Assembly (NCBI RefSeq): GCF_004375085.3 | Contig: NZ_SNAQ03000007.1 | Span: forward strand, 62,001-126,000 | Source: Lewinella sp. W8 | GTDB taxonomy: Bacteria > Bacteroidota > Bacteroidia > Chitinophagales > Saprospiraceae | Direction of reading: 5' to 3' | Length of the DNA: 64,000 nucleotides | Shown here: in pieces, positions 39,475 to 51,597 of the stretch | How positions within the stretch are numbered: the first letter of the stretch is position 1 | Layout of the letters: every line of letters starts with the position of its first letter | Position numbers and translations under genes: made by a program | The notes under the pieces: generated by a model | Told to the model about the DNA's origin: nothing | Seen by the model: the letters and a program-made list of their open reading frames with translations, nothing else | Databases searched by the model: none

Positions 39475-39616
39475 TGGGCTGTTCCGTGAGGTTTCATCAG
39501 CGATTCCTGCGGAATCGTTGCAGTTCAGTAGGGCAAACGGTAGCGGCAGGAAATTTCCTGCCGCTACTAGAAATTTCAAGGGCTTGATCGCCAAATGATT
39601 GATGCACATAATAGCC
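39475..39616 (+). repeat. MITE-like nested-palindrome repeat, copy 1
   Basis: Left end GGGCTGTTCCGTGA, inner hairpin GCGATTCC/GGAATCG, perfect 28-bp palindrome at 39540-39567 built on GTAGCGGCA...TGCCGCTAC, right end degenerate. It aligns along its whole length with 42956-43099. Confidence 0.75.
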
Positions 39617-41843: not shown

Positions 41844-42036
41844 GCGCGATGAAGCAGGATCTTCCCCGTCGATTAGTGCAAAGTTGTAACCCTTGTGGGA
41901 GCATAGAGATATAACCCTCTTCTCCTGTATGTTTTTCCTCAATAAAATGCTTTTTGGTATTAAATGGAGTTGTGATGTGGGAGTCTACTCATCACTGATT
42001 TTTGACAAAGACAGTCATTTTTTCTACTATGCGAGT
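41844..42036. other. Intergenic, nothing recognised
   Basis: Left part of a 1.3-kb gene-free region (41844-43136) that is mostly made of repeats listed separately. Here no gene or repeat is recognisable. Confidence 0.4.
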
Positions 42037-42277
42037 TTGGTACTTTTGTCGGCCAAAAGTACCGCAAAAGCCTTCCGTCTAAATTGCCGGCTTAACGGGC
42101 TCGCGGCACTTTTGGCGCCTACGAAATTGAAACTCGCCGCACACTTCTTTTTTCAAAGAACACCTATCGATTGTCGAATCCTTGTTTTTCAAGTAATCAC
42201 CAAGTATTGGCTCAAACACCAATTCCGCTTCACGGCCCAAAAGCACCGCTCTCCCTACCAGCAATTAAGGCCGGGTA
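42037..42277 (+). repeat. Dispersed ~240-bp repeat, copy 1
   Basis: Begins with hairpin GGTACTTTTG-TCGGC-CAAAAGTACC, then GCAAAAGCCTTCCGTCTAAA, GAAACTCGCCGCACAC and ends GCAATTAAGGCCGGG. It is nearly identical to the minus strand of 51131-51368. The layout recalls repeated non-coding elements seen in other Bacteroidota genomes. Confidence 0.8.
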
Positions 42278-42509
42278 TAAGATTTTTCTCGTTGCTGTCT
42301 TTGATTAAAGTATTTGCTACTACCAAGCTTTCTTAGTGGTTTGTTCCGGGTTTTCCCTGCTACCCCCTTTTTTCGGCCTTCGTCATCGGTAGGGAATGGA
42401 GGCCTTTGCGACCGTTAAGCAAAGCTGGTGTATGAGCACCCCCAAAGCTTTTAAAAAAGTACCCATTGATGTGTAACCGATCGGTGGTTTTTTGTCCACT
42501 AAATTGGTT
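42278..42509. other. Intergenic, nothing firm
   Basis: Between repeat copies. The piece near 42380-42425 (TAGGGAATGGAGGCCTTTGC, CCGTTAAGCAAAG) may be another fragment of the dispersed repeat family, too short to call. Confidence 0.35.
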
Positions 42510-42610
42510 GCGAGTTTCGGCTTTGTAGGTCAGCAAAGGTCTCCATTCCCGTTAAGCCGATGATGCAGCCGAGGGCTTTTGGCTCCACCTTTTGGCCAGC
42601 AAAAGGTGGA
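42510..42610 (-). repeat. Dispersed repeat, diverged partial copy 3
   Basis: Shares the ordered blocks CGAGTTTC, TTTGTAGGTC, CCCGTTAAGCCG, GGCTTTTG and a terminal hairpin with the 51131 copy. The hairpin is now TCCACCTTTTGGCCAGCAAA plus its arm, i.e. changed sequence but kept pairing. Confidence 0.6.
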
Positions 42611-42955
42611 AAACTTATGGGGTCGAATTGTTCTTGGCGCTTTGGAGTAAATTTAGAGGCTTCTTACGCCCCCCATTATTTAGCCACTGCATTCATCTGA
42701 CCAAAATTAAAAATAAGTTGCGATCTCAATTTTTGGTAAGGAAGAACTAGAAAGAGAATAGACTCAGCTGAAAAAACAATCTGTGTGCCATCAGAAGAGG
42801 TATAACTCTACCCCGTCCCACACCCCAACGACACTAGTGCCGAAAAAGGTCAAATAGAGATCGATCATTGAAGTCCATACCAGTGCTAAGGCGAATCGGT
42901 CGGTCATCCTTCTCCCGACCAATTATCCAGACAAGCTCTTATTAAGCCTTAGGCC

Positions 42956-43099
42956 TAGGCTGTTCCGTGAGGTTTCATTAGCGATTCCTGCGGAATCGCG
43001 GCAGTTCAGAGGGGCAAATAGTAGCGGCAAGGCATGCCTTGCCGCTACTAGTAAATTCAAGGACTTGATGGCCACAGGGTTAATTCACGGAACAGCCTA
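42956..43099 (+). repeat. MITE-like nested-palindrome repeat, copy 2 (complete)
   Basis: 144 bp with perfect 15-bp terminal inverted repeats TAGGCTGTTCCGTGA / TCACGGAACAGCCTA, an inner hairpin GCGATTCC-TGC-GGAATCGC, and a perfect 28-bp palindrome at 43021-43048. No open frame. It ends 37 bp before the next start codon. Confidence 0.85.
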
Positions 43100-43136
43100 C
43101 CCTTACATCACAAGGCCGTATCTTCGCGCTCCCTTT

Positions 43137-46100
43137 ATGATGCGACACAAGATCAAGGCATTGCTGGCGCTTGGCGTGCTCCTGTTCCTCCAACAGTGTG
43201 GAAAGGAAGCCCAACCCACGTTCGGGGATCAATCCAGCGTTCCCGCGGACGCTGCGTTCTCCCTCATGACCAGTCCCGGCAATAACCCCACCGGGGTGGA
43301 CTTCGAGAATACCCTGACCTACACCGAACAGCTCAACCCCTACACCTACCGCAATTTCTACAACGGCGGTGGGGTAGGGATCGCGGACTTCAACGGGGAT
43401 GGTCTTCAGGACATCTTCCTCACCGGAAACCTCGTCGGCAACCGACTCTACCTCAACCAGGGGGGCTTCAACTTCCTCGACGTCACCCGGGAAGCCGGGG
43501 TGGGGTGCCCGGACAGCTGGAGCACCGGCGTGGCGATCGTGGATATTGACGCCGACGGGGACCAGGACATCTACGTCTGCAAGGCCGGCCCTCCGGCCGG
43601 CGAAAAGATTCCCGGCATGACCGGCGTGCGCCACAACGAACTCTTTCTGAACAACGGCGACGCCACCTTCCGGGAAGCCTCGGCCGAGTATGGACTGGAT
43701 ATCGTGGGATTGTCCGTCCACGCCGCCTTTTTCGACTACGACCAGGACGGTGACCTGGACGCCTACCTGCTCAACAACTCCACCCGCTCCACCACCGGCT
43801 ATGACCTGCGGGAGGGACTCCGGGAAATACCCGATCCGGAGGGCGGCAACAAACTGCTGCGCAATGAGGGTGGCCGCTTCGTGGACGTGAGCCAGGAAGC
43901 CGGCATCTATTCCTCCAATATCGGCTTCGGACTGGGCGTAACGGTGGGGGACGTGAACGAAGACGGCCTGCCCGATCTTTTCGTCAGCAACGACTTCTTC
44001 GAGCGGGATTACCTCTATTTCAATCAGGGCGACGGCACCTTCCGGGAACAGCTCACGGACTACCTGCCGGAGATCAGTCAGGGAAGCATGGGCGCCGATT
44101 TTGCCGACCTGAACAACGACGGCCTGCCGGAGCTCTTCGTCACCGAAATGCTGCCGCGCACCGAGGAACGGCGCAAAACCAAGGCGGCCTTCAATGGCTG
44201 GAACCGCTACCAGCTCTACCGCGACAAGGGATATCACCAGCAATTCAGCCGCAACGTGCTGCAACTGAACCGGGGCGACGGTCGCTTCAGCGAAATCAGC
44301 CGCCTGGCCGGAGTGGACGCCACCGACTGGAGTTGGGGCGCCCTGCTCTTCGACATGAATAACGACGGCTTTCGCGACATCTTCGTGGCCAACGGCACCG
44401 GGAAGGACCTGCTCGATCAGGATTACATCAACTTCCAGGCCAACCCCGCCGCCATCCGGCGGATGGTCTTCGAGGAGGGAAAGAGCGTTACCGACGTAAT
44501 CGATCAGATGCCCAGCGAAGCCCTCGTCAACGGCGTCTTTGCGGGCGGAGACGGGCTGCAGTTCCGGGAAGTGGCCGGGGAGTGGGGCATGGACCAGAAG
44601 ACCTTCAGCAACGGGGCCGCCTACGGCGACCTGGACAACGATGGCGACCTCGACCTGGTGGTCAATAACATCGATGCCCCGGTGGGCATCTACCGCAACA
44701 ACGCGGCTACCTCCGGACAACTCTTGCACCTGCGCGCCGCCGCCGCCCCAAATCCCGACGCCATCGGTGCTCAGGTTTTTGCCTACTCGGAAAAGGGCCT
44801 GCGGTACGCGGAACTGCACCCCATGCGCGGCTTTCAGAGTACGGTGGACAAACGCCTGCATTTTGCCGGAGCACTGGACTCCGTGCTCATCCGCTGGCCC
44901 AACGGCGATTGGGAATCCTTCGTGTCGGTTACGGAAGCGACCATCTGGAGCCTGAAGCAGGGAGAGGGCAGGAGCAGAACGTCGGATGCGCGCCCCCGAC
45001 CGGCGGCTACTAAAGGTTCGGCCTTCACCTTTACCATCGAAGACACCAAAGCCCGGCACGAAGAAGACCGGCCCCAGGAATTTGACCGTGACCCACTATT
45101 GTTTCTGGGCCTCAATAATGAAGGCCCGGCACTGGCCCTGTCCTCCGACCGTCAGTGGTTGTACCAGGGCGGAGCCGCAGGGCAGAACGGAACAATGTTC
45201 TGGGTAGATGATCGATTTTTCTTGAAGGCAACCCCACTGCTACTTCAGGATCAAAATGCCGAAAACACCGACGCCGTCTTCTTTGACGCCGACGGCGACG
45301 GCGACGAAGACCTCTACGTGGCCAACGGTAGCCACCAGTTCGGACCGGCTTCCACGGCACTTTTCGATGTCTTATACTTCAACGAGGGTAGAAAATTCCG
45401 GCGGGGCAAACAGGTGCTGCCCTCCGCCCGTAAACCGGTTGCGTCTTCCTGCGTGCGACCCCACGACGTCGACGGCGACGGCGACCTGGACCTCTTCGTG
45501 GGTGGCCGGCTGCGGCCCGGCCTGTACGGGGTGCCGACCGAAAGCTTCCTGCTGATCAACGACGGACGGGGAGCGTTTGCACCCGCCATCGTCCCGGAAC
45601 TGGAACGCATCGGCCTGGTGACCGACGCCCACTGGGCTAACGTCAGCGGCAACGAGCGCGAAGAGCTGATCGTGGCCACGGAGTGGGGGGCAATAAAGAT
45701 CATCAGCTTTGATGCCGCCGGCCGGATCACCGGAGTTGAGTCCATTTCCGGTACCGCGGGCCTGTGGCACGGCCTGCACCTGGCGGACGTAAACGCCGAC
45801 GGTCGGCTGGACATCCTGGCCGGAAACCAGGGACTCAACAACCGCTTCCGGGCCACCGTCGATCAACCAATGGAGCTGCACGTCAACGATTTTGACGGTA
45901 ACGGGCGGGCGGAACAGTTGCTGACCCAGTTTGCCGCAGACGGCAAATCCTACCCCCTCAACCTCCGCGACGATTTGGTCAAACAAATGCCCGCACTGCG
46001 TAAGCAGATTCCCGGCTACGCCGACTACGTGGGCAAGACGCTGGCGGACCTGTTTCCCGCCGACATCCTGGAGCGATCGGAGATCGGTCGGGTGGAGACG

Positions 46101-46460
46101 CTGGCTTCCATCGTGCTGCTGAACCTGCCCGACGGATGGACCCCGAAAGATTTACCCCTCGAAGCGCAACTGACCCCCCTGTATGCCTTAACCACCACCG
46201 ACCTTAACGGAGACGGCCACCTGGACGTGCTGGCGGCCGGTAACCAGACCGTCGCGAAACCGGAAATCGGCATCAATGCCGCGGGATTCGGGTCGGTGTT
46301 ACTGGGTGACGGTACGGGAAACTTTACGGCCCTCGGTCCCGCCGAGACGAATTTGGTCCTGCGGGGAGACGTGCGGGCCCTGGTTCCTGCCGGCACCGGC
46401 CGGTGGTTGGTGGGGCGTTCCGGGGGATCAACTGCATTACTTAAACTACAAACCCGATGA
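43137..46460 (+). CDS. FG-GAP/VCBS repeat lipoprotein with ASPIC/UnbV domain (paralogue 1)
   Basis: 1107 aa from the ATG at 43137; the frame upstream runs into the MITE-like repeat, so an earlier start is unlikely. Lipoprotein signal with 'LLFLQQC'. Many calcium-loop repeats of form D-x-N/D-x-D-G-x-x-D (e.g. 'DFNGDGLQDIFLTGN', 'DYDQDGDLDAYLLNN') predict a seven-bladed beta propeller in two sets. Between them is an ASPIC/UnbV domain ('HPMRGFQSTVDKRLHFAGAL', 'VLIRWPNGDW'). Such CRTAC1-like proteins are surface-exposed in Bacteroidota and often stand near SusCD genes; none is present here. Stop overlaps the next start by 4 nt. Confidence 0.9.
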   Translation: MMRHKIKALLALGVLLFLQQCGKEAQPTFGDQSSVPADAAFSLMTSPGNNPTGVDFENTLTYTEQLNPYTYRNFYNGGGVGIADFNGDGLQDIFLTGNLVGNRLYLNQGGFNFLDVTREAGVGCPDSWSTGVAIVDIDADGDQDIYVCKAGPPAGEKIPGMTGVRHNELFLNNGDATFREASAEYGLDIVGLSVHAAFFDYDQDGDLDAYLLNNSTRSTTGYDLREGLREIPDPEGGNKLLRNEGGRFVDVSQEAGIYSSNIGFGLGVTVGDVNEDGLPDLFVSNDFFERDYLYFNQGDGTFREQLTDYLPEISQGSMGADFADLNNDGLPELFVTEMLPRTEERRKTKAAFNGWNRYQLYRDKGYHQQFSRNVLQLNRGDGRFSEISRLAGVDATDWSWGALLFDMNNDGFRDIFVANGTGKDLLDQDYINFQANPAAIRRMVFEEGKSVTDVIDQMPSEALVNGVFAGGDGLQFREVAGEWGMDQKTFSNGAAYGDLDNDGDLDLVVNNIDAPVGIYRNNAATSGQLLHLRAAAAPNPDAIGAQVFAYSEKGLRYAELHPMRGFQSTVDKRLHFAGALDSVLIRWPNGDWESFVSVTEATIWSLKQGEGRSRTSDARPRPAATKGSAFTFTIEDTKARHEEDRPQEFDRDPLLFLGLNNEGPALALSSDRQWLYQGGAAGQNGTMFWVDDRFFLKATPLLLQDQNAENTDAVFFDADGDGDEDLYVANGSHQFGPASTALFDVLYFNEGRKFRRGKQVLPSARKPVASSCVRPHDVDGDGDLDLFVGGRLRPGLYGVPTESFLLINDGRGAFAPAIVPELERIGLVTDAHWANVSGNEREELIVATEWGAIKIISFDAAGRITGVESISGTAGLWHGLHLADVNADGRLDILAGNQGLNNRFRATVDQPMELHVNDFDGNGRAEQLLTQFAADGKSYPLNLRDDLVKQMPALRKQIPGYADYVGKTLADLFPADILERSEIGRVETLASIVLLNLPDGWTPKDLPLEAQLTPLYALTTTDLNGDGHLDVLAAGNQTVAKPEIGINAAGFGSVLLGDGTGNFTALGPAETNLVLRGDVRALVPAGTGRWLVGRSGGSTALLKLQTR

Positions 46461-47053
46461 TTCGCTACCCCTGGTTTCTGGCCTTTTTCGGGCTGCTCTT
46501 TTTCACCTCCTGTCAAACCGATGATCGTCCACCGGAAGAACGGTACGCGGAAGCCCTCGCGGCCGGCCTGGCCAGCAAGACGGTGACCAATGACCTGTTC
46601 CTTGGCCTGGAACTGGACATGACGGACCAGGAATTCTACGACCAGTGCACCCGGCTGAACCAGCAGAAAAAGATCGTGATGGGATCCGGTGGAAACCGAG
46701 TCAATTACGCGATGTCGGAGGAACTGGATCGTCCGGCGACGATGACCTTTTACCCGGATTTCAGTAAGGATGATCCGCGGCGGATCCTGGCCATGGACTT
46801 GGAAATCAGCTACGACGACTGGTCGCCCTGGAACCGGGACGCCAGCAGTGCCGCGCTGATCAAAGATTTGTACACCTACGTGAAGGAGGAGTACGGGAAT
46901 GATATTATTCCCGTTCCCGACGACCGTTACAAAGTGATCTTCACGCAGGTGAAGAACAACCGCCGCATCGCTTTCTGGATCAAGGACGAACGCATCGTGC
47001 GGGTGAGAATCACCGATTTACGGGCCCTGCCCGAAGAACCCCTGGGACTATAG
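46457..47053 (+). CDS. Hypothetical lipoprotein between the FG-GAP genes
   Basis: 198 aa. Lipobox 'LLFFTSC' at about residue 19. The mature domain has mixed strands and helices ('LFLGLELDMTDQEFYDQCTR', 'AMDLEISYDDWSPWNRDASS', 'YKVIFTQVKNNRRIAFWIKD'). Its ATG overlaps the upstream FG-GAP stop (ATGA) and it ends 9 nt before the next FG-GAP gene, so the three form one operon. Probably a partner of the FG-GAP lipoproteins at the cell surface. Family unknown. Confidence 0.82.
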   Translation: MIRYPWFLAFFGLLFFTSCQTDDRPPEERYAEALAAGLASKTVTNDLFLGLELDMTDQEFYDQCTRLNQQKKIVMGSGGNRVNYAMSEELDRPATMTFYPDFSKDDPRRILAMDLEISYDDWSPWNRDASSAALIKDLYTYVKEEYGNDIIPVPDDRYKVIFTQVKNNRRIAFWIKDERIVRVRITDLRALPEEPLGL

Positions 47054-47062
47054 CAAGCCGAT

Positions 47063-50000
47063 ATGAAGTATTCAATGAAGAAGTATTTGGCGCTAGCGCT
47101 GGTGCCGTGTTTTTATCTGATGAGCTGTGGCGGTCCGTCGGACGAGGGGGGCATTCCTCCCTACGATGGCAGTACCCTCTTCGAGCGGATTTCCCCGGGT
47201 AAAAGCGGCGTGGATTTTGCCAACGAGCTGACCTTCGACGAGGATTTCAACATCTACAAATACCGCAACTACTACAACGGGGGCGGTGTGGCCCTGGGGG
47301 ACGTCAACAACGACGGACTGACGGACATCTACTTCAGCGGCAACCGCGTCAAAAACCGTCTCTACCTCAACCGGGGGAACTTTGAGTTCGAGGACGTAAC
47401 GGAGGCGGCCGGCGTTGCCGGTCAGGCCGCCTGGAGCACCGGGGTGACGATGGTGGACGTGAACGCCGACGGCTGGCTGGACATCTACCTGTGTAATTCC
47501 GGCGATATCGCCGGCGATAACCGCCGCAACGAACTGTATATCAACCAGCGTGACGGGACCTTCCAGGAGGGGGCCGAAGTATTCGGCCTGGCCAACGAGG
47601 GCCTGAGCACCCACGCCGTTTTCTTCGATTACGACAAGGACGGAGACCTGGATTGTTACCTGCTCAACAACAGCTACCAGGCCATCGGGTCCTTTAATCT
47701 CGAACGCAACGAACGTCCCATCCGCGACGAAAAAGGGGGCGACATTCTTTACCGGAACGACGGCGGAGAATTCAAGGACGTTTCCGAAGAAGCCGGCATC
47801 TACGGCTCCATCATCGGCTTCGGTCTTGGGGTCACCGTCGGTGACGTGGACCGGGACGGCTGGCTGGACATCTACGTCTCCAATGACTTCTTCGAGCGGG
47901 ACTACCTCTACATGAATAATCAGGATGGCACCTTCCGGGAAACCCTCACGGAATCCATGAACTCCATCAGTGCGGCTTCCATGGGCGCCGACATGGCCGA
48001 CATCGACAATGACGGATACGGAGAAATTTTCGTGACGGAAATGCTGCCGGCCACCAACGAAAGGATCAAGACGGCCACGACCTTCGAAAACTGGAACAAG
48101 TACCAGTACAACCTCAAGAACGACTATTTCCACCAGTTCACCCGCAACATGCTGCAGCGGAACAACGGCGACGGAACCTACACGGAGGTCGGCCGACTCG
48201 CCGGTGTGGAAGCCACCGACTGGAGCTGGGGAGCCCTGATCTTCGATATGGAAAATGATGGCTACAAAGATCTCTTCGTCGCCAACGGCATCTATCAGGA
48301 TCTCACCAACCGCGACTTTCTGGACTACATCGCCGACGATGAGTTCAAGCGTGAAATTACCGCCAGCGGCAAAGTGGATTTTGAAAAACTGGTGGACGCC
48401 ATTCCCTCCAATCCCGTACCCAATGCTGCTTTCCGCAATCTGGGGGCCGGGGAAGACTTTCGTTTTGAAGACGTAGCTGCCGAATACGGTCTTGACCTGC
48501 TCGGCTTCTCCAATGGCTCCGCCTACGCGGATCTGGATAACGATGGTGACCTGGATCTGGTCGTCAACAACGTTAACCGTACGGCTACCCTTTACCGCAA
48601 CCACGCCGAGGAAAAGCAACAAGACAACCACTGGTTACAACTGATCCCGAAGGGGAAGACCGGTAACACCTTTGCCGTCGGCACCAAGGCCACCGTCTTT
48701 GCGGGAGAAGACCGCTTTTTCCTGGAGCACATGCCCATGCGGGGTTTTCAGTCCAGCATGGATTACCGGATGCACTTCGGGCTCGGTCCCGTAGCGACCA
48801 TCGACAGCGTTTTACTGGAATGGCCGGACGGAGAATTCATGGTGGTCACGAATCTGGCGGTGGATCAGCTGGTGACCGTAGCCCGTAGTGGTCAGGTGAC
48901 GACCAGCCAGTCGGAGAAAGTAAGCGTTCGCTACGCCGAAGGACCGGAAATTGAACAGGAAGTGGCCGAAGCTACGGTCTTCCGTACCCTGGATGATCGC
49001 GTGGCCTTCATCGCGAATAACGAACATAAAGAAAATCGCTTCTCTGACTTCGACCGCGACCCCCTGATTTTCCATATGCTCAGTGCGGATGGCCCCGCGC
49101 TGTGCGCGGGCCGCTTTGATCGGTCCGGCAACCTCAGCTTCTACCTCGGCGGCGCCCGGGACCAACCCGGTCGGATCAATACCTACGCCCGGGGGAGTTA
49201 CCTGATTACGGGAGAGGAGGTGACCGCAGAAGACCAGGTCAGTGAAGACGTCGCCTGCGCCTGTTTTGACGCCGATGGCGACGGGGACGACGATATCTAC
49301 GTCGTTAGTGGTAGTAGTGAGTTCGGTGCGGCCAGCACCGCCCTGATGGACCGGCTTTACCTCAATGAGGGCGACGGTCGTCGGTGGACGAAGAGCAAGC
49401 AATTGTTGCCGAACAGCCGCCGGCCCGCAGTGGGCAGTACCGTAGCGCCCCATGACGTAGACGGAGACGGCGACCTCGATCTGTTCGTCGGCTCCCGGAT
49501 GCGCCCCGGCCTGTACGGAGTACCCACGGATAGCTACCTGCTGATCAACGACGGTAAAGGAAACTTTACGGACGTGGAGGCCGCGGCCCTGAAGGAGATC
49601 GGAATGGTCACGGACGCCGTCTGGACGGACCTGACCGGTGACGGAACCGCCGAGTTGCTCGTGGTCGGAGAATGGATGGCTCCCCGGGCCTTTTCCGTGT
49701 CGGAGGGGGAGCTTTCCCCGATGAACCTTGAATTTGCCCGACCAGACGGCACGGCCACCGACATGTTGGGGTGGTACAACGACGTGCTGGCGGCCGACTT
49801 CAACGGAGACGGTAGAATGGATCTGGCCCTCGGAAACCATGGCCTGAATTCCCGTTTCCGGGCCTCGGAATCGGCACCGGTTATTCTCCACGTCAACGAC
49901 TTCGATCAGAATGGCTCGGCCGAACAGATCATTTCCACCTATGAAGGGGATAAGGCCTATCCCGTTCCCCTTCTGCACGATCTGGTCAAACAAATGCCGG

Positions 50001-50464
50001 GCCTGCGGAAACGCTATCTGAAGTACAGCTCCTTCGGGGACCAGACCATGGAGGACATCTTCCCCGCCGAAGTCCTCGAACGTTCCGTACGCTTTGAGGC
50101 GACGGAACTCCGCTCGGTCATCCTGCTCCAGCAGGCAGACGGAAGTTTTACCGTTCAGCCGCTGCCGACCAAGGCGCAGGAAAGTCCCGTTTTCGCGCTG
50201 GAATCCCTGGACTTTGATGCGGATGGTGACCTGGATATTTTACTCGGGGGCAATTTCTTTTACGCAAAACCCGAAGTGGGCCGTTACGACGCCAGTAGAG
50301 GGTTACTGCTGGAGAACGATGGTACGGGGCAGTTCACTGCCGTGAACGCCGGTCGGAGTGGGATAAAGGTCGCGGGGGAAATCCGCGAGATGGTGTCACT
50401 GGGCCGGGGGCGTTACCTCCTGGCCCGGAACAACGACTTGCCGGTGATGCTGATGCGGGAGTAA
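47063..50464 (+). CDS. FG-GAP/VCBS repeat lipoprotein with ASPIC/UnbV domain (paralogue 2)
   Basis: 1133 aa (an ATG four codons later is equally possible). Lipobox 'CFYLMSC'. Same architecture as the gene at 43137 and alignable throughout: 'YRNYYNGGGVALGDVNNDGL', ASPIC/UnbV segment 'EHMPMRGFQSSMDYRMHFGL' and 'VLLEWPDGEF', then the second propeller set with 'CFDADGDGDDDIYVVSG' and 'DGDGDLDLFVGSRMRPGLYG'. Calcium-dependent adhesion or glycan/protein binding is the usual guess for the family. Gene duplication with the small lipoprotein between copies. Confidence 0.9.
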   Translation: MKYSMKKYLALALVPCFYLMSCGGPSDEGGIPPYDGSTLFERISPGKSGVDFANELTFDEDFNIYKYRNYYNGGGVALGDVNNDGLTDIYFSGNRVKNRLYLNRGNFEFEDVTEAAGVAGQAAWSTGVTMVDVNADGWLDIYLCNSGDIAGDNRRNELYINQRDGTFQEGAEVFGLANEGLSTHAVFFDYDKDGDLDCYLLNNSYQAIGSFNLERNERPIRDEKGGDILYRNDGGEFKDVSEEAGIYGSIIGFGLGVTVGDVDRDGWLDIYVSNDFFERDYLYMNNQDGTFRETLTESMNSISAASMGADMADIDNDGYGEIFVTEMLPATNERIKTATTFENWNKYQYNLKNDYFHQFTRNMLQRNNGDGTYTEVGRLAGVEATDWSWGALIFDMENDGYKDLFVANGIYQDLTNRDFLDYIADDEFKREITASGKVDFEKLVDAIPSNPVPNAAFRNLGAGEDFRFEDVAAEYGLDLLGFSNGSAYADLDNDGDLDLVVNNVNRTATLYRNHAEEKQQDNHWLQLIPKGKTGNTFAVGTKATVFAGEDRFFLEHMPMRGFQSSMDYRMHFGLGPVATIDSVLLEWPDGEFMVVTNLAVDQLVTVARSGQVTTSQSEKVSVRYAEGPEIEQEVAEATVFRTLDDRVAFIANNEHKENRFSDFDRDPLIFHMLSADGPALCAGRFDRSGNLSFYLGGARDQPGRINTYARGSYLITGEEVTAEDQVSEDVACACFDADGDGDDDIYVVSGSSEFGAASTALMDRLYLNEGDGRRWTKSKQLLPNSRRPAVGSTVAPHDVDGDGDLDLFVGSRMRPGLYGVPTDSYLLINDGKGNFTDVEAAALKEIGMVTDAVWTDLTGDGTAELLVVGEWMAPRAFSVSEGELSPMNLEFARPDGTATDMLGWYNDVLAADFNGDGRMDLALGNHGLNSRFRASESAPVILHVNDFDQNGSAEQIISTYEGDKAYPVPLLHDLVKQMPGLRKRYLKYSSFGDQTMEDIFPAEVLERSVRFEATELRSVILLQQADGSFTVQPLPTKAQESPVFALESLDFDADGDLDILLGGNFFYAKPEVGRYDASRGLLLENDGTGQFTAVNAGRSGIKVAGEIREMVSLGRGRYLLARNNDLPVMLMRE

Positions 50465-50477
50465 ATCAGACTGTTGA

Positions 50478-51053
50478 ATGATCAACCCCGTATCCAACGT
50501 GTGGTATACTCCGAGAGGTGTTTTTAGCTCCCAGAGTGGTCAAGAAGCGGAGTGGAAGAAGTACATAAAGTGGTCTAAGTTGACTCACTTGTCAGAGGTA
50601 GTGTCACTAGATGGTTTACTCAATAAAATATTGATGAATATAGACTCCGACCATGAAACGATCTGGAAATATTTGGTAGTAGAGGGGCAAGTCGTTACGC
50701 CATTTTTTACTTCTCTTGAGTACGTTATTGAAAGCACTAAAGATTTTCTTCCATTTAATTTATTGGCAGTGATACGAGATCCTAGCCAACGAAGGGCCCA
50801 TTTGGATCACGATTTTGAGTTCATTGGATATGATCTGATCGATAAGGATTTTCAAATCAGTGCTTTAGTGAATTGTGGCGGGTTTGATGAATCATTCCAG
50901 CCTGATGACCTAAATCAATTCGGATTGATTTCCCAATGGGGAAATGCGAGAATCATTCAAGCCAAGCTGCGAAAATTAAATCCAGAAGAATTTCATGCTG
51001 ATTGTGAGATGTTCGAAGTGTGGAGACACAAGACCATTGGAAGGATTAAATAA
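50478..51053 (+). CDS. Hypothetical cytosolic protein
   Basis: 191 aa, clearly more AT-rich than the FG-GAP genes before it. No signal peptide or membrane helix. Contains 'FFTSLEYVIESTKDFLPFNL' and 'GYDLIDKDFQISALVNCGGF'. Composition, size and single-gene position suggest a recently acquired gene, perhaps an orphan immunity-type protein, but no motif proves it. Confidence 0.65.
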   Translation: MINPVSNVWYTPRGVFSSQSGQEAEWKKYIKWSKLTHLSEVVSLDGLLNKILMNIDSDHETIWKYLVVEGQVVTPFFTSLEYVIESTKDFLPFNLLAVIRDPSQRRAHLDHDFEFIGYDLIDKDFQISALVNCGGFDESFQPDDLNQFGLISQWGNARIIQAKLRKLNPEEFHADCEMFEVWRHKTIGRIK

Positions 51054-51130
51054 AGAATTCGTGTGATCTCACACAAGACTTGGTAAAAGCAAATGCTGTT
51101 GTTTGCCATTTAACGAGGAAAATCATTTTC
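51054..51130. other. Intergenic before repeat copy 2
   Basis: Contains the short palindrome GTGTGATCTCACAC at 51060-51073, which may be the hairpin of a weak terminator; no T-run follows. Confidence 0.35.
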
Positions 51131-51368
51131 CCGGCCTTAATTGCTGGTAGGGGGAGGGGTGCTTTTTGGCCGTGAAGCGGAATTGGTGTTTGAGCCAATA
51201 CTTAGTGACGACTTGGAATACAAGTAGTCGACAATCGAAAGGCGTTCTTTGAAAAGAGTAGTGTGCGGCGAGTTTCAATTTCGTAGGTCGAAAGGTGCCG
51301 TAGCCCGTTAAGCCGGCAATTTAGACGGAAGGCTTTTGCGGTACTTTTGGCCGACAAAAGTACCAAGC
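51131..51368 (-). repeat. Dispersed ~240-bp repeat, copy 2 (inverted)
   Basis: Near-identical to 42037-42277 but on the opposite strand, including both ends (CCGGCCTTAATTGC at one end, hairpin GGTACTTTTG-GCCGA-CAAAAGTACC at the other). The two copies bracket the first two FG-GAP genes as an inverted pair about 9 kb apart. Confidence 0.8.
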
Positions 51369-51597
51369 CTGGATAGCAAGAATAATGTTTGCCTTGGCTA
51401 TAGATCAATGATAAAAAGGCTATTGCATGAAACAACCCTAGCGTCTAGCGCACAATTTAGTCAGCCAGGAGATAGGAGGAAAAGGCTTAACTATAGGCCT
51501 CCGCGAGGGTTAAAACTTTTCGATAATCATTGGCATTGCAACATTTAGTCTATTGGCCCAACCGCAAGATCGCGTCAGTACTTTTAAATCTTCTCCG
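51369..51597. other. Intergenic, nothing recognised
   Basis: Between the repeat and the DUF4291 stop codon; no frame or motif of note. Confidence 0.4.

Follow-up and report, generated by a model that had tools for sequence, protein, structure and literature searches.

The window analysed here, a stretch of 64,000 nucleotides from Lewinella sp. W8, contains a pair of inverted repeats with FG-GAP genes between them, and matches to PF13517 and PF07593 confirm that assignment of the genes. The original prediction described the repeats as nearly identical, and this is what is found: 42037-42284 aligns with the minus strand of 51366-51115 over 254 columns at 90.6% identity (E 4.5e-97), with longest identical runs of 65, 36, and 28 bp. 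The limits of ~240 bp first given to the repeat were too narrow, as homology to other genomic copies spans ~41868-42822. A stretch at 42510-42610 had been described as a diverged relative of the repeat with an end hairpin changed on both arms. The relationship and the hairpin change (GGTAC/GTACC to CCACC/GGTGG) stand but the 100-bp size does not: a diverged match to the start of the repeat at 42548-42605 (minus strand) is accompanied by a second match at 42388-42437, so the relative is a full-length copy at ~42374-42610. The inverted repeats are copies of one mobile DNA element, the first complete and the second broken, and the inverted arrangement results from two copies of one element inserted in opposite orientations rather than from a designed flanking pair. 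The features of the two copies are as follows.

41864-41867: possible 4-bp target duplication CCCC on the left, weak because the left element end is short of one terminal T
41868-42822: complete ~955-bp non-autonomous element (terminal inverted repeat, module A, centre, inverted module B, terminal inverted repeat), from the homology limits of five end-to-end genomic copies
41868-41892, plus strand: left terminal inverted repeat (TIR), GTCGATTAGTGCAAAGTTGTAACCC, followed by a diverged tandem second copy of the motif
42035-42277, predicted RNA on the minus strand (alignment orientation plus): module A, from a covariance model match at 42035-42141 (plus), the helices, and the strand tests
42039-42063: P0 hairpin of module A
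42077-42090: P1 arm of module A, GTCTAAATTGCCGG, 12 of 14 positions paired with 42258-42271
42103-42115: P3 arm of module A, 11 of 13 positions paired with 42237-42249
42122-42129: P2 arm of module A, 7 of 8 positions paired with 42220-42227
42130-42218: apical region of module A, AAACTCGC, then ~72 nt of variable sequence at near-constant length, then GCTCAAACA
42220-42227: P2 partner arm of module A
42237-42249: P3 partner arm of module A
42258-42271: P1 partner arm of module A, CCAGCAATTAAGGC
42374-42610, predicted RNA on the plus strand: module B, a diverged inverted copy (covariance model match 42506-42614 minus, 53 bits)
42797-42822, minus strand: right TIR, TGTGGGACGGGGTAGAGTTATACCTC on the minus strand (TIR pattern match at 104797-104822 of contig C77)
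42823-42826: possible 4-bp target duplication CCCC on the right
51115-51368, predicted RNA on the plus strand: module A of the truncated element copy, the second arm of the pair (covariance model match 51264-51368 minus, 130 bits)
51369-51530, minus strand: truncated copy, remnant of the TIR and a decayed left arm that is 52% identical to its intact counterpart

The right half of the truncated copy (~51115-51530) is absent. The genome holds five end-to-end copies of the element, one of which is split by an IS110-family insertion, as well as older fragments. Both ends of the element copies match a single TIR pattern, and all 29 matches to this pattern in the genome fall within the ~955-bp element or a sister element of ~460 bp that shares its ends. 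Identical 4-bp target duplications flank three of the five large copies and 12 of the 15 sister copies; among the large copies other than the one in the window, the flanks are AGTA/AGTA, AAAG/AAAG, AATT/AATT, and an imperfect AATT/AATC, and the CCCC pair in the window is offset. All 15 sister elements and two of the five large copies are inserted into repeated palindromes. The target of the sister element is a separate family of REP-like palindromes in the genome that start with GTAG.

The element contains two inverted copies of a module of ~245 nt, A at 42035-42277 and B at 42374-42610. Each module has a hairpin, P0, and an extended stem built from three helices, in which P1 is followed by an internal loop, P3, a second internal loop, P2, and an apical loop. 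Both internal loops, one on each side of P3, have GUUAA facing ~1 nt on the favoured strand. The helices are also present in module B, where P3 has 16 of 17 and P2 6 of 6 positions paired. P0 sits ~170 bp inside the TIR in the complete element.

The original prediction placed the repeat in a structured family and hinted at a structured RNA, and both suggestions are supported by strong covariation over the copies within the genome and across 16 lineages. When the P0 hairpin was aligned alone and without gaps, all 14 hairpins (six distinct) paired at every position, and four of the ten pairs had changed on both sides; in a first alignment of P0, where MAFFT misplaced a gap, RNAalifold reported 1 of 13 pairs as covarying. 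With the MAFFT alignment of 20 modules as input, RNAalifold recovered the structure in part only. For the longer helices, the pairing of each arm with its own partner was compared to pairing with partners from other lineages. Across 16 lineages, which are related and include paralogous modules of one genome entered separately, the own and cross-lineage scores were 7.91 and 4.06 for P1, 12.06 and 4.21 for P3, and 8.19 and 4.40 for P2, and the observed value was reached in none of 20000 permutations for any of the three helices. A first set of nine lineages gave 0, 1, and 0 of 20000 permutations, and wrong-partner controls in that test were null (14592 and 9004 of 20000). Two matches in genome G125 (L074 and L080; E 2.3e-4) that do not have the second motif were excluded before the covariation tests, and the module of genome G602 was left out of the 16-lineage test as its anchor motif is absent. 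The helices of the module are kept by compensatory change across genera, independent of sequence. Additionally, the conserved blocks of the module outlive the decay of the surrounding element: L005 and L008, the two partial copies of greatest age, are still 97% and 94% identical to the window copy in block 1 and 95% and 94% identical in block 2, against 57% and 52% in the left arm.

The module recurs in genomes that are not linked by BLASTn. Model matches were found in 8 of 150 genomes of the family and in 9 of 21 genomes of the genus (the source genome is counted in both), and an order-wide scan of 198 genomes returned five at E <= 0.003, one of which, G602, belongs to another family and has a module without the exact motif pair. 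Of 35 modules examined in other genomes, 33 have at the predicted distance a GCTCnnnCA motif, which was outside the search model; when the two G125 matches dropped earlier are included, the count is 33 of 37. The shape of the module is conserved across the bacterial family and its sequence is not. Among 395 genomes of the phylum, a descriptor of the exact motifs matched the source genome (11 matches) and one unrelated-looking sequence only, and a short-loop version matched two genomes, both unrelated-looking; with so strict a descriptor, and with most of the carriers outside the sample, this is weak evidence of absence. In viral contigs 85 stretches fit the descriptor, and of the 80 returned not one was confirmed by the model. 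The module is also found with other ends. A paired element in G002 has different TIRs, paired elements in G005 and G003 have a third TIR type beside P0, and in G190 the module occurs as solitary copies whose homology begins at P0.

The strand on which the module would act was examined by folding. The minus strand gives the more stable fold in 15 of 16 lineage groups, where part of the raw energy gap is due to base composition, and its z-score is the lower one in 12 of 16 lineages and the higher one in 4 of 16. When the helices are read on the plus strand, A.C mismatches (26) outnumber G.T pairs (13). As folding and wobble evidence favour the same strand, the RNAs of modules A and B would be transcribed divergently. 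The module probably encodes an RNA, which would be read from the best-folding strand, with the two members of a pair transcribed outwards from the centre and P0 at the 3' end of each. Neither a promoter nor a terminator was identified for it. Overlapping open reading frames were found at 3 of 22 loci, on differing strands and with none in common, so a protein-coding module was rejected. Cis-regulation of one gene class was likewise set aside, as the 20 neighbouring proteins are diverse in their Pfam matches and no gene recurs among them as a common neighbour.

The element has TIRs and short target duplications and does not encode a transposase, and it was most likely moved in trans, probably by a DDE-type transposase. 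All 29 TIR matches in the genome, a draft assembly from which a partner may be missing, are non-coding, and a search of genome contigs gave one relative, with no transposase seen. Three genes in the genome with a PF00665 (rve-type) domain were considered as the partner and rejected, as no TIR-like sequence near them rose clearly above shuffled background.

Several known systems resemble the element in part. Bacterial MITEs, which include NEMIS, ERIC, and Nezha (PMC3733652), share with it TIRs, short target duplications, the lack of a transposase, dispersed intergenic copies, and structure if transcribed. The element is far bigger than these MITEs, at ~955 bp, and contains two inverted ~245-nt modules with a secondary structure that is conserved between genera and is found with at least three TIR types. 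REP, BIME, and REPIN sequences are also structured intergenic units that frequently form inverted pairs, but REPs are simple palindromes of 20-40 bp (PMC3733652), whereas the unit here is a ~245-nt fold of four helices. It does not fit the definition of a REP as a palindrome of that size with a GTAG/CGTC foot and an RAYT gene. IS1397, ISPa11, ISPpu9/10, and ISRm22 insert into REP sequences (PMC1525189), and the insertion into repeated palindromes is alike; the inserting elements here differ from those IS elements in being non-autonomous, with no partner IS found.

A gathering-threshold Rfam scan of the 64-kb window returned one tRNA only, and permissive scans gave no credible match for the module, HEARO included. 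HEARO, GOLLD, ROOL, and OLE are large structured bacterial ncRNAs whose function is not obvious, some of them mobile or repeated. The module is like them in its large, highly conserved fold and its mobility, and differs in matching no Rfam family, in the two-fold GUUAA internal loops around one helix, and in occurring as divergent pairs in TIR elements. The integron attC consensus includes GTTRRRY, and the GCTTAAC and GTTAAGC sequences of the module resemble its R boxes; compared by eye with the consensus, the pairing partner is CTAC rather than GTTRRRY and the spacing is wrong, and attC was rejected. A literature search that covered few subscription papers or preprints found no description of the element or the fold.

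We consider it likely that the pair represents two copies of a MITE-like element with inverted ~245-nt modules whose fold is conserved and which probably acts as RNA. The original prediction saw in the inverted arms a potential inversion of the lipoprotein genes between them, and arms of ~250 bp with 90.6% identity and a 65-bp identical run could recombine at a low rate. It is very improbable that they serve as a switch: with at least eight similar copies of this dispersed element in the genome, nothing distinguishes the pair from the others, the second arm has decayed to a fragment and shows no sign of upkeep as a partner, similar modules elsewhere flank unrelated genes, and no tie is seen between the module and the FG-GAP genes. 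An equally slight chance is given to an ordinary decaying foldback repeat, in which the pairing would reflect inverted duplication only and the module would have no function. The element halves are themselves inverted duplicates (59% identity over 591 columns), but P1, P2, and P3 form within one module and not between the halves, solitary modules carry them too, the helices covary across 16 lineages, and the core blocks outlast the flanks.

The structure could instead work as single-stranded DNA in the manner of REPIN or IS200/IS605 elements, with an HUH (tyrosine) transposase or some other enzyme that binds single-stranded DNA recognising the hairpins. Inverted pairs of a structured unit with outward hairpins are a REPIN-like layout, the conserved P0 hairpin lies outermost in the module, and the homology of the solitary G190 copies begins there. 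We regard this as unlikely, as several paired elements have TIRs (those of the source genome, which have 4-bp duplications, and those of G002, G005, and G003) and HUH elements are not known to make a target duplication; the module also far exceeds the size of a REP and its fold favours one strand, although single-stranded DNA could show the same. A guide-type (omegaRNA-like) RNA used in trans by a TnpB- or IscB-like nuclease, with the guide beyond the P0 end, is more doubtful still. The module is mobile and highly structured, and its predicted 3' end lies at the edge of homology beside variable sequence in G190 and in old copies here, but P0 of the complete element is ~170 bp inside the TIR rather than at the edge, no TnpB or IscB was found among the Pfam matches of the 20 neighbouring proteins, and the module matches neither HEARO nor any other Rfam family.

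Under the preferred reading of a MITE-like element with RNA-forming modules, the most likely role of the module would be that of an element-encoded non-coding RNA, bound by protein via its paired internal loops, that helps the element to spread or persist. More tentatively, and at somewhat under even chances, the modules may form an undescribed class of mobile structured RNA of ~245 nt, carried as divergent pairs in non-autonomous transposons with several unrelated types of TIR, in relatives of Lewinella and in their family, with arrays in some species, whose opposed GUUAA loops would dock a partner protein that the element exploits. The predictions on strand, ends, and paired internal loops are concrete and can be tested in cultivable relatives. 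Bacterial MITEs are mostly treated as decayed leftovers. Here, selection preserves an ornate fold in the interior even as the transposon ends are replaced, which points to a cargo function. Since BLASTn misses the fold and Rfam has no entry for it, Bacteroidota may contain many such families that have escaped annotation.

The repeat at the inverted pair is a MITE-like element that carries an inverted pair of a conserved structured module. The original prediction of an inverted repeat held, as 42037-42284 and the minus strand of 51366-51115 are 90.6% identical over 254 columns. The unit was described as too small, however, since the homology among the copies in the Lewinella sp. W8 genome (6.18 Mb, 91 contigs; the window corresponds to C77:62001-126000) spans ~950 bp (window 41868-42822). 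Likewise, 42510-42610 was correctly taken to be a relative of the repeat, but it is a piece of a full-length diverged copy (~42374-42610) on the opposite strand. The features are:

41868-42822, large element (~955 bp): terminal inverted repeat (TIR), module A, centre, inverted module B, TIR
42035-42277, module A
42374-42610, module B, inverted relative to module A
51115-51368, second arm, inverted relative to module A

Five end-to-end copies of the large element were found in the genome: the window copy on contig C77, a pair on C11, and single copies on C21 and C22. A 1.4-kb stretch with an IS110-family transposase (PF01548, PF02371) interrupts one of them; this insertion sequence (L023:2722-4146) adjoins the P0 hairpin, one of the module helices, of module B. 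Shorter or diverged copies are present on C44 (twice), on C28 and at C77:113112-113412. The last is the second arm in the window; it retains module A, together with a left arm in decay, and lacks the right half. The segment between the two arms encodes two FG-GAP/ASPIC proteins. Recombination between the arms would be possible in principle, but they are two of at least eight similar copies in the genome, and their longest common run is 65 bp.

The large copies end in inverted repeats of the TGTGGG...TTRTAACC type. This pattern (≤3 mismatches) gives 29 matches in the genome versus 1 on a reversed control, and all 29 fall either in large elements or in a ~460-bp class (15 copies, loci L032-L057, e.g. 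C5:143403-143861) that has the same TIRs and a different foldback interior. All 15 of the ~460-bp elements examined are inserted exactly in the middle of a palindrome of the type GTAGCGGCAAGG-CATG-CCTTGCCGCTAC (GTAGCGGCA...TGCCGCTAC), and its central four bases are identically duplicated around the insert in 12 of them. Palindromes of this type free of an insert occur 47 times (≤3 mismatches). These places, including window 43021-43048 and 39540-39567, are REP-like perfect palindromes that represent empty targets of the ~460-bp elements, and their central ~12 bp vary symmetrically (AAGGCATGCCTT, AGGAAATTTCCT, AGGTAATTACCT). One palindrome is enclosed by a ~144-bp repeat-like unit (window 42956-43099) with the TIR TAGGCTGTTCCGTGA, and related ends border other copies in loci L023 and L026. 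For the large element, target duplications were assigned by eye: three copies have AGTA, AAAG and AATT, respectively, the window copy has CCCC offset by one base, and the fifth has an imperfect AATT/AATC; two of the five copies, also by eye, lie in such palindromes. No transposase with ends of the TIR type was found in the genome, where three rve-domain genes were checked. Over the genome collection, only one further record, a Lewinella MAG, matched the TIR pattern; a remnant in it (L066:5595-5860) has the same TIR type and a tandem-TIR left end and lacks the P0 hairpin.

Conserved blocks common to module A and inverted module B alternate with spacers that vary. These blocks remain 94-97% identical to the window copy in the two oldest partial copies, whereas the left arm there has fallen to 52-57%. 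BLASTn found the module in none of 59 other genomes. A covariance model built on 13 own copies and spanning module positions 1-107 did find other genomes. In the family set it matched 8 of 150 (E ≤ 0.01), counting the own genome, and in the genus set 9 of 21 (E ≤ 0.05), with 16, 13, 11, 6, 5, 4, 3, 1 and 1 matches per genome. About 1.5 false matches are expected at E ≤ 0.01 over 150 genomes, so single weak matches need support. Such support comes from within-genome repeats (77-95% identity over 195-414 bp) and from GCTCnnnCA, a motif outside the model that lies 55-100 nt past ACTCGC in 33 of 35 modules tested from other genomes (33 of 37 when two G125 matches without the motif, left out earlier, are counted in); together these cover part of the listed matches.

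The module contains four helices: P0, a 10-bp hairpin, P1 with 14-nt arms, P3 and P2. Over 20 modules, P3 pairs up to 17/17 and P2 up to 11/11, and the spacing is near-constant (CTTAACG to CTCGC, 43-47 nt; CTCGC to GCTC, 68-74 nt). In P0, 100% of cells are paired over six distinct rows, with double changes in four pairs and a covariation score of 0.547 versus 0.132 for shuffled alignments (reached in 0 of 500 shuffles). For P1, P3 and P2, the best Watson-Crick pairing of the 5' region of one lineage with the 3' region of the same or another lineage was scored, and own partners came out clearly ahead. The own-partner sum was reached in 0, 1 and 0 of 20000 permutations, respectively, for 9 lineages, for which wrong-helix controls were null, and in 0 of 20000 for each helix for 16 lineages; paralogues of one genome were entered separately, so the lineages are not fully independent. 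Because the best window was taken for own and cross pairs alike, window choice does not explain the own-partner excess. A near-identical ~20-nt insert (ACCACGAAGTAGC.GCG.AGC), which may be yet another small mobile palindrome, adjoins or interrupts P0 in module B of L027 and in L071 of another species (G002).

The minus strand of the module gives the more stable fold in 15 of 16 lineage groups. Against dinucleotide shuffles, its z-score is below that of the plus strand in 12 of the 16 representatives (minus z -2.95 to -9.97). In the plus reading, mismatches are A.C in 26 cases versus G.T in 13, despite G.T being counted as a pair in the choice of arms. On the minus strand, P1 is followed by an internal loop, P3, a second internal loop, P2, the apical region and, close to the 3' end, P0; GUUAA occupies one side of the P1/P3 loop and the opposite side of the P3/P2 loop. 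The direction of reading in the window would be leftwards for module A and rightwards for module B and the second-arm module.

Inverted module pairs with P0 outward also occur in genomes G002, G005 (~715 bp) and G003, with TIR sequences that differ from those of the large element, and module arrays are found in G013 and G015. These pairs and arrays indicate that the module is not bound to one set of transposon ends. Tandem or inverted arrays within 3 kb were seen at L206, L217 and L222 (G015) and at L210 (G013), where the period is ~573 bp. The genes that adjoin modules are diverse (20 proteins scanned), and the Pfam matches of these proteins include no transposase, reverse transcriptase or TnpB/IscB. 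Rfam at gathering scores returned only a tRNA in the window, and permissive scans returned nothing credible.

Both the mobility of the element and the structure of the module are well supported. The structure probably acts at the RNA level, and we infer that the module is transcribed.
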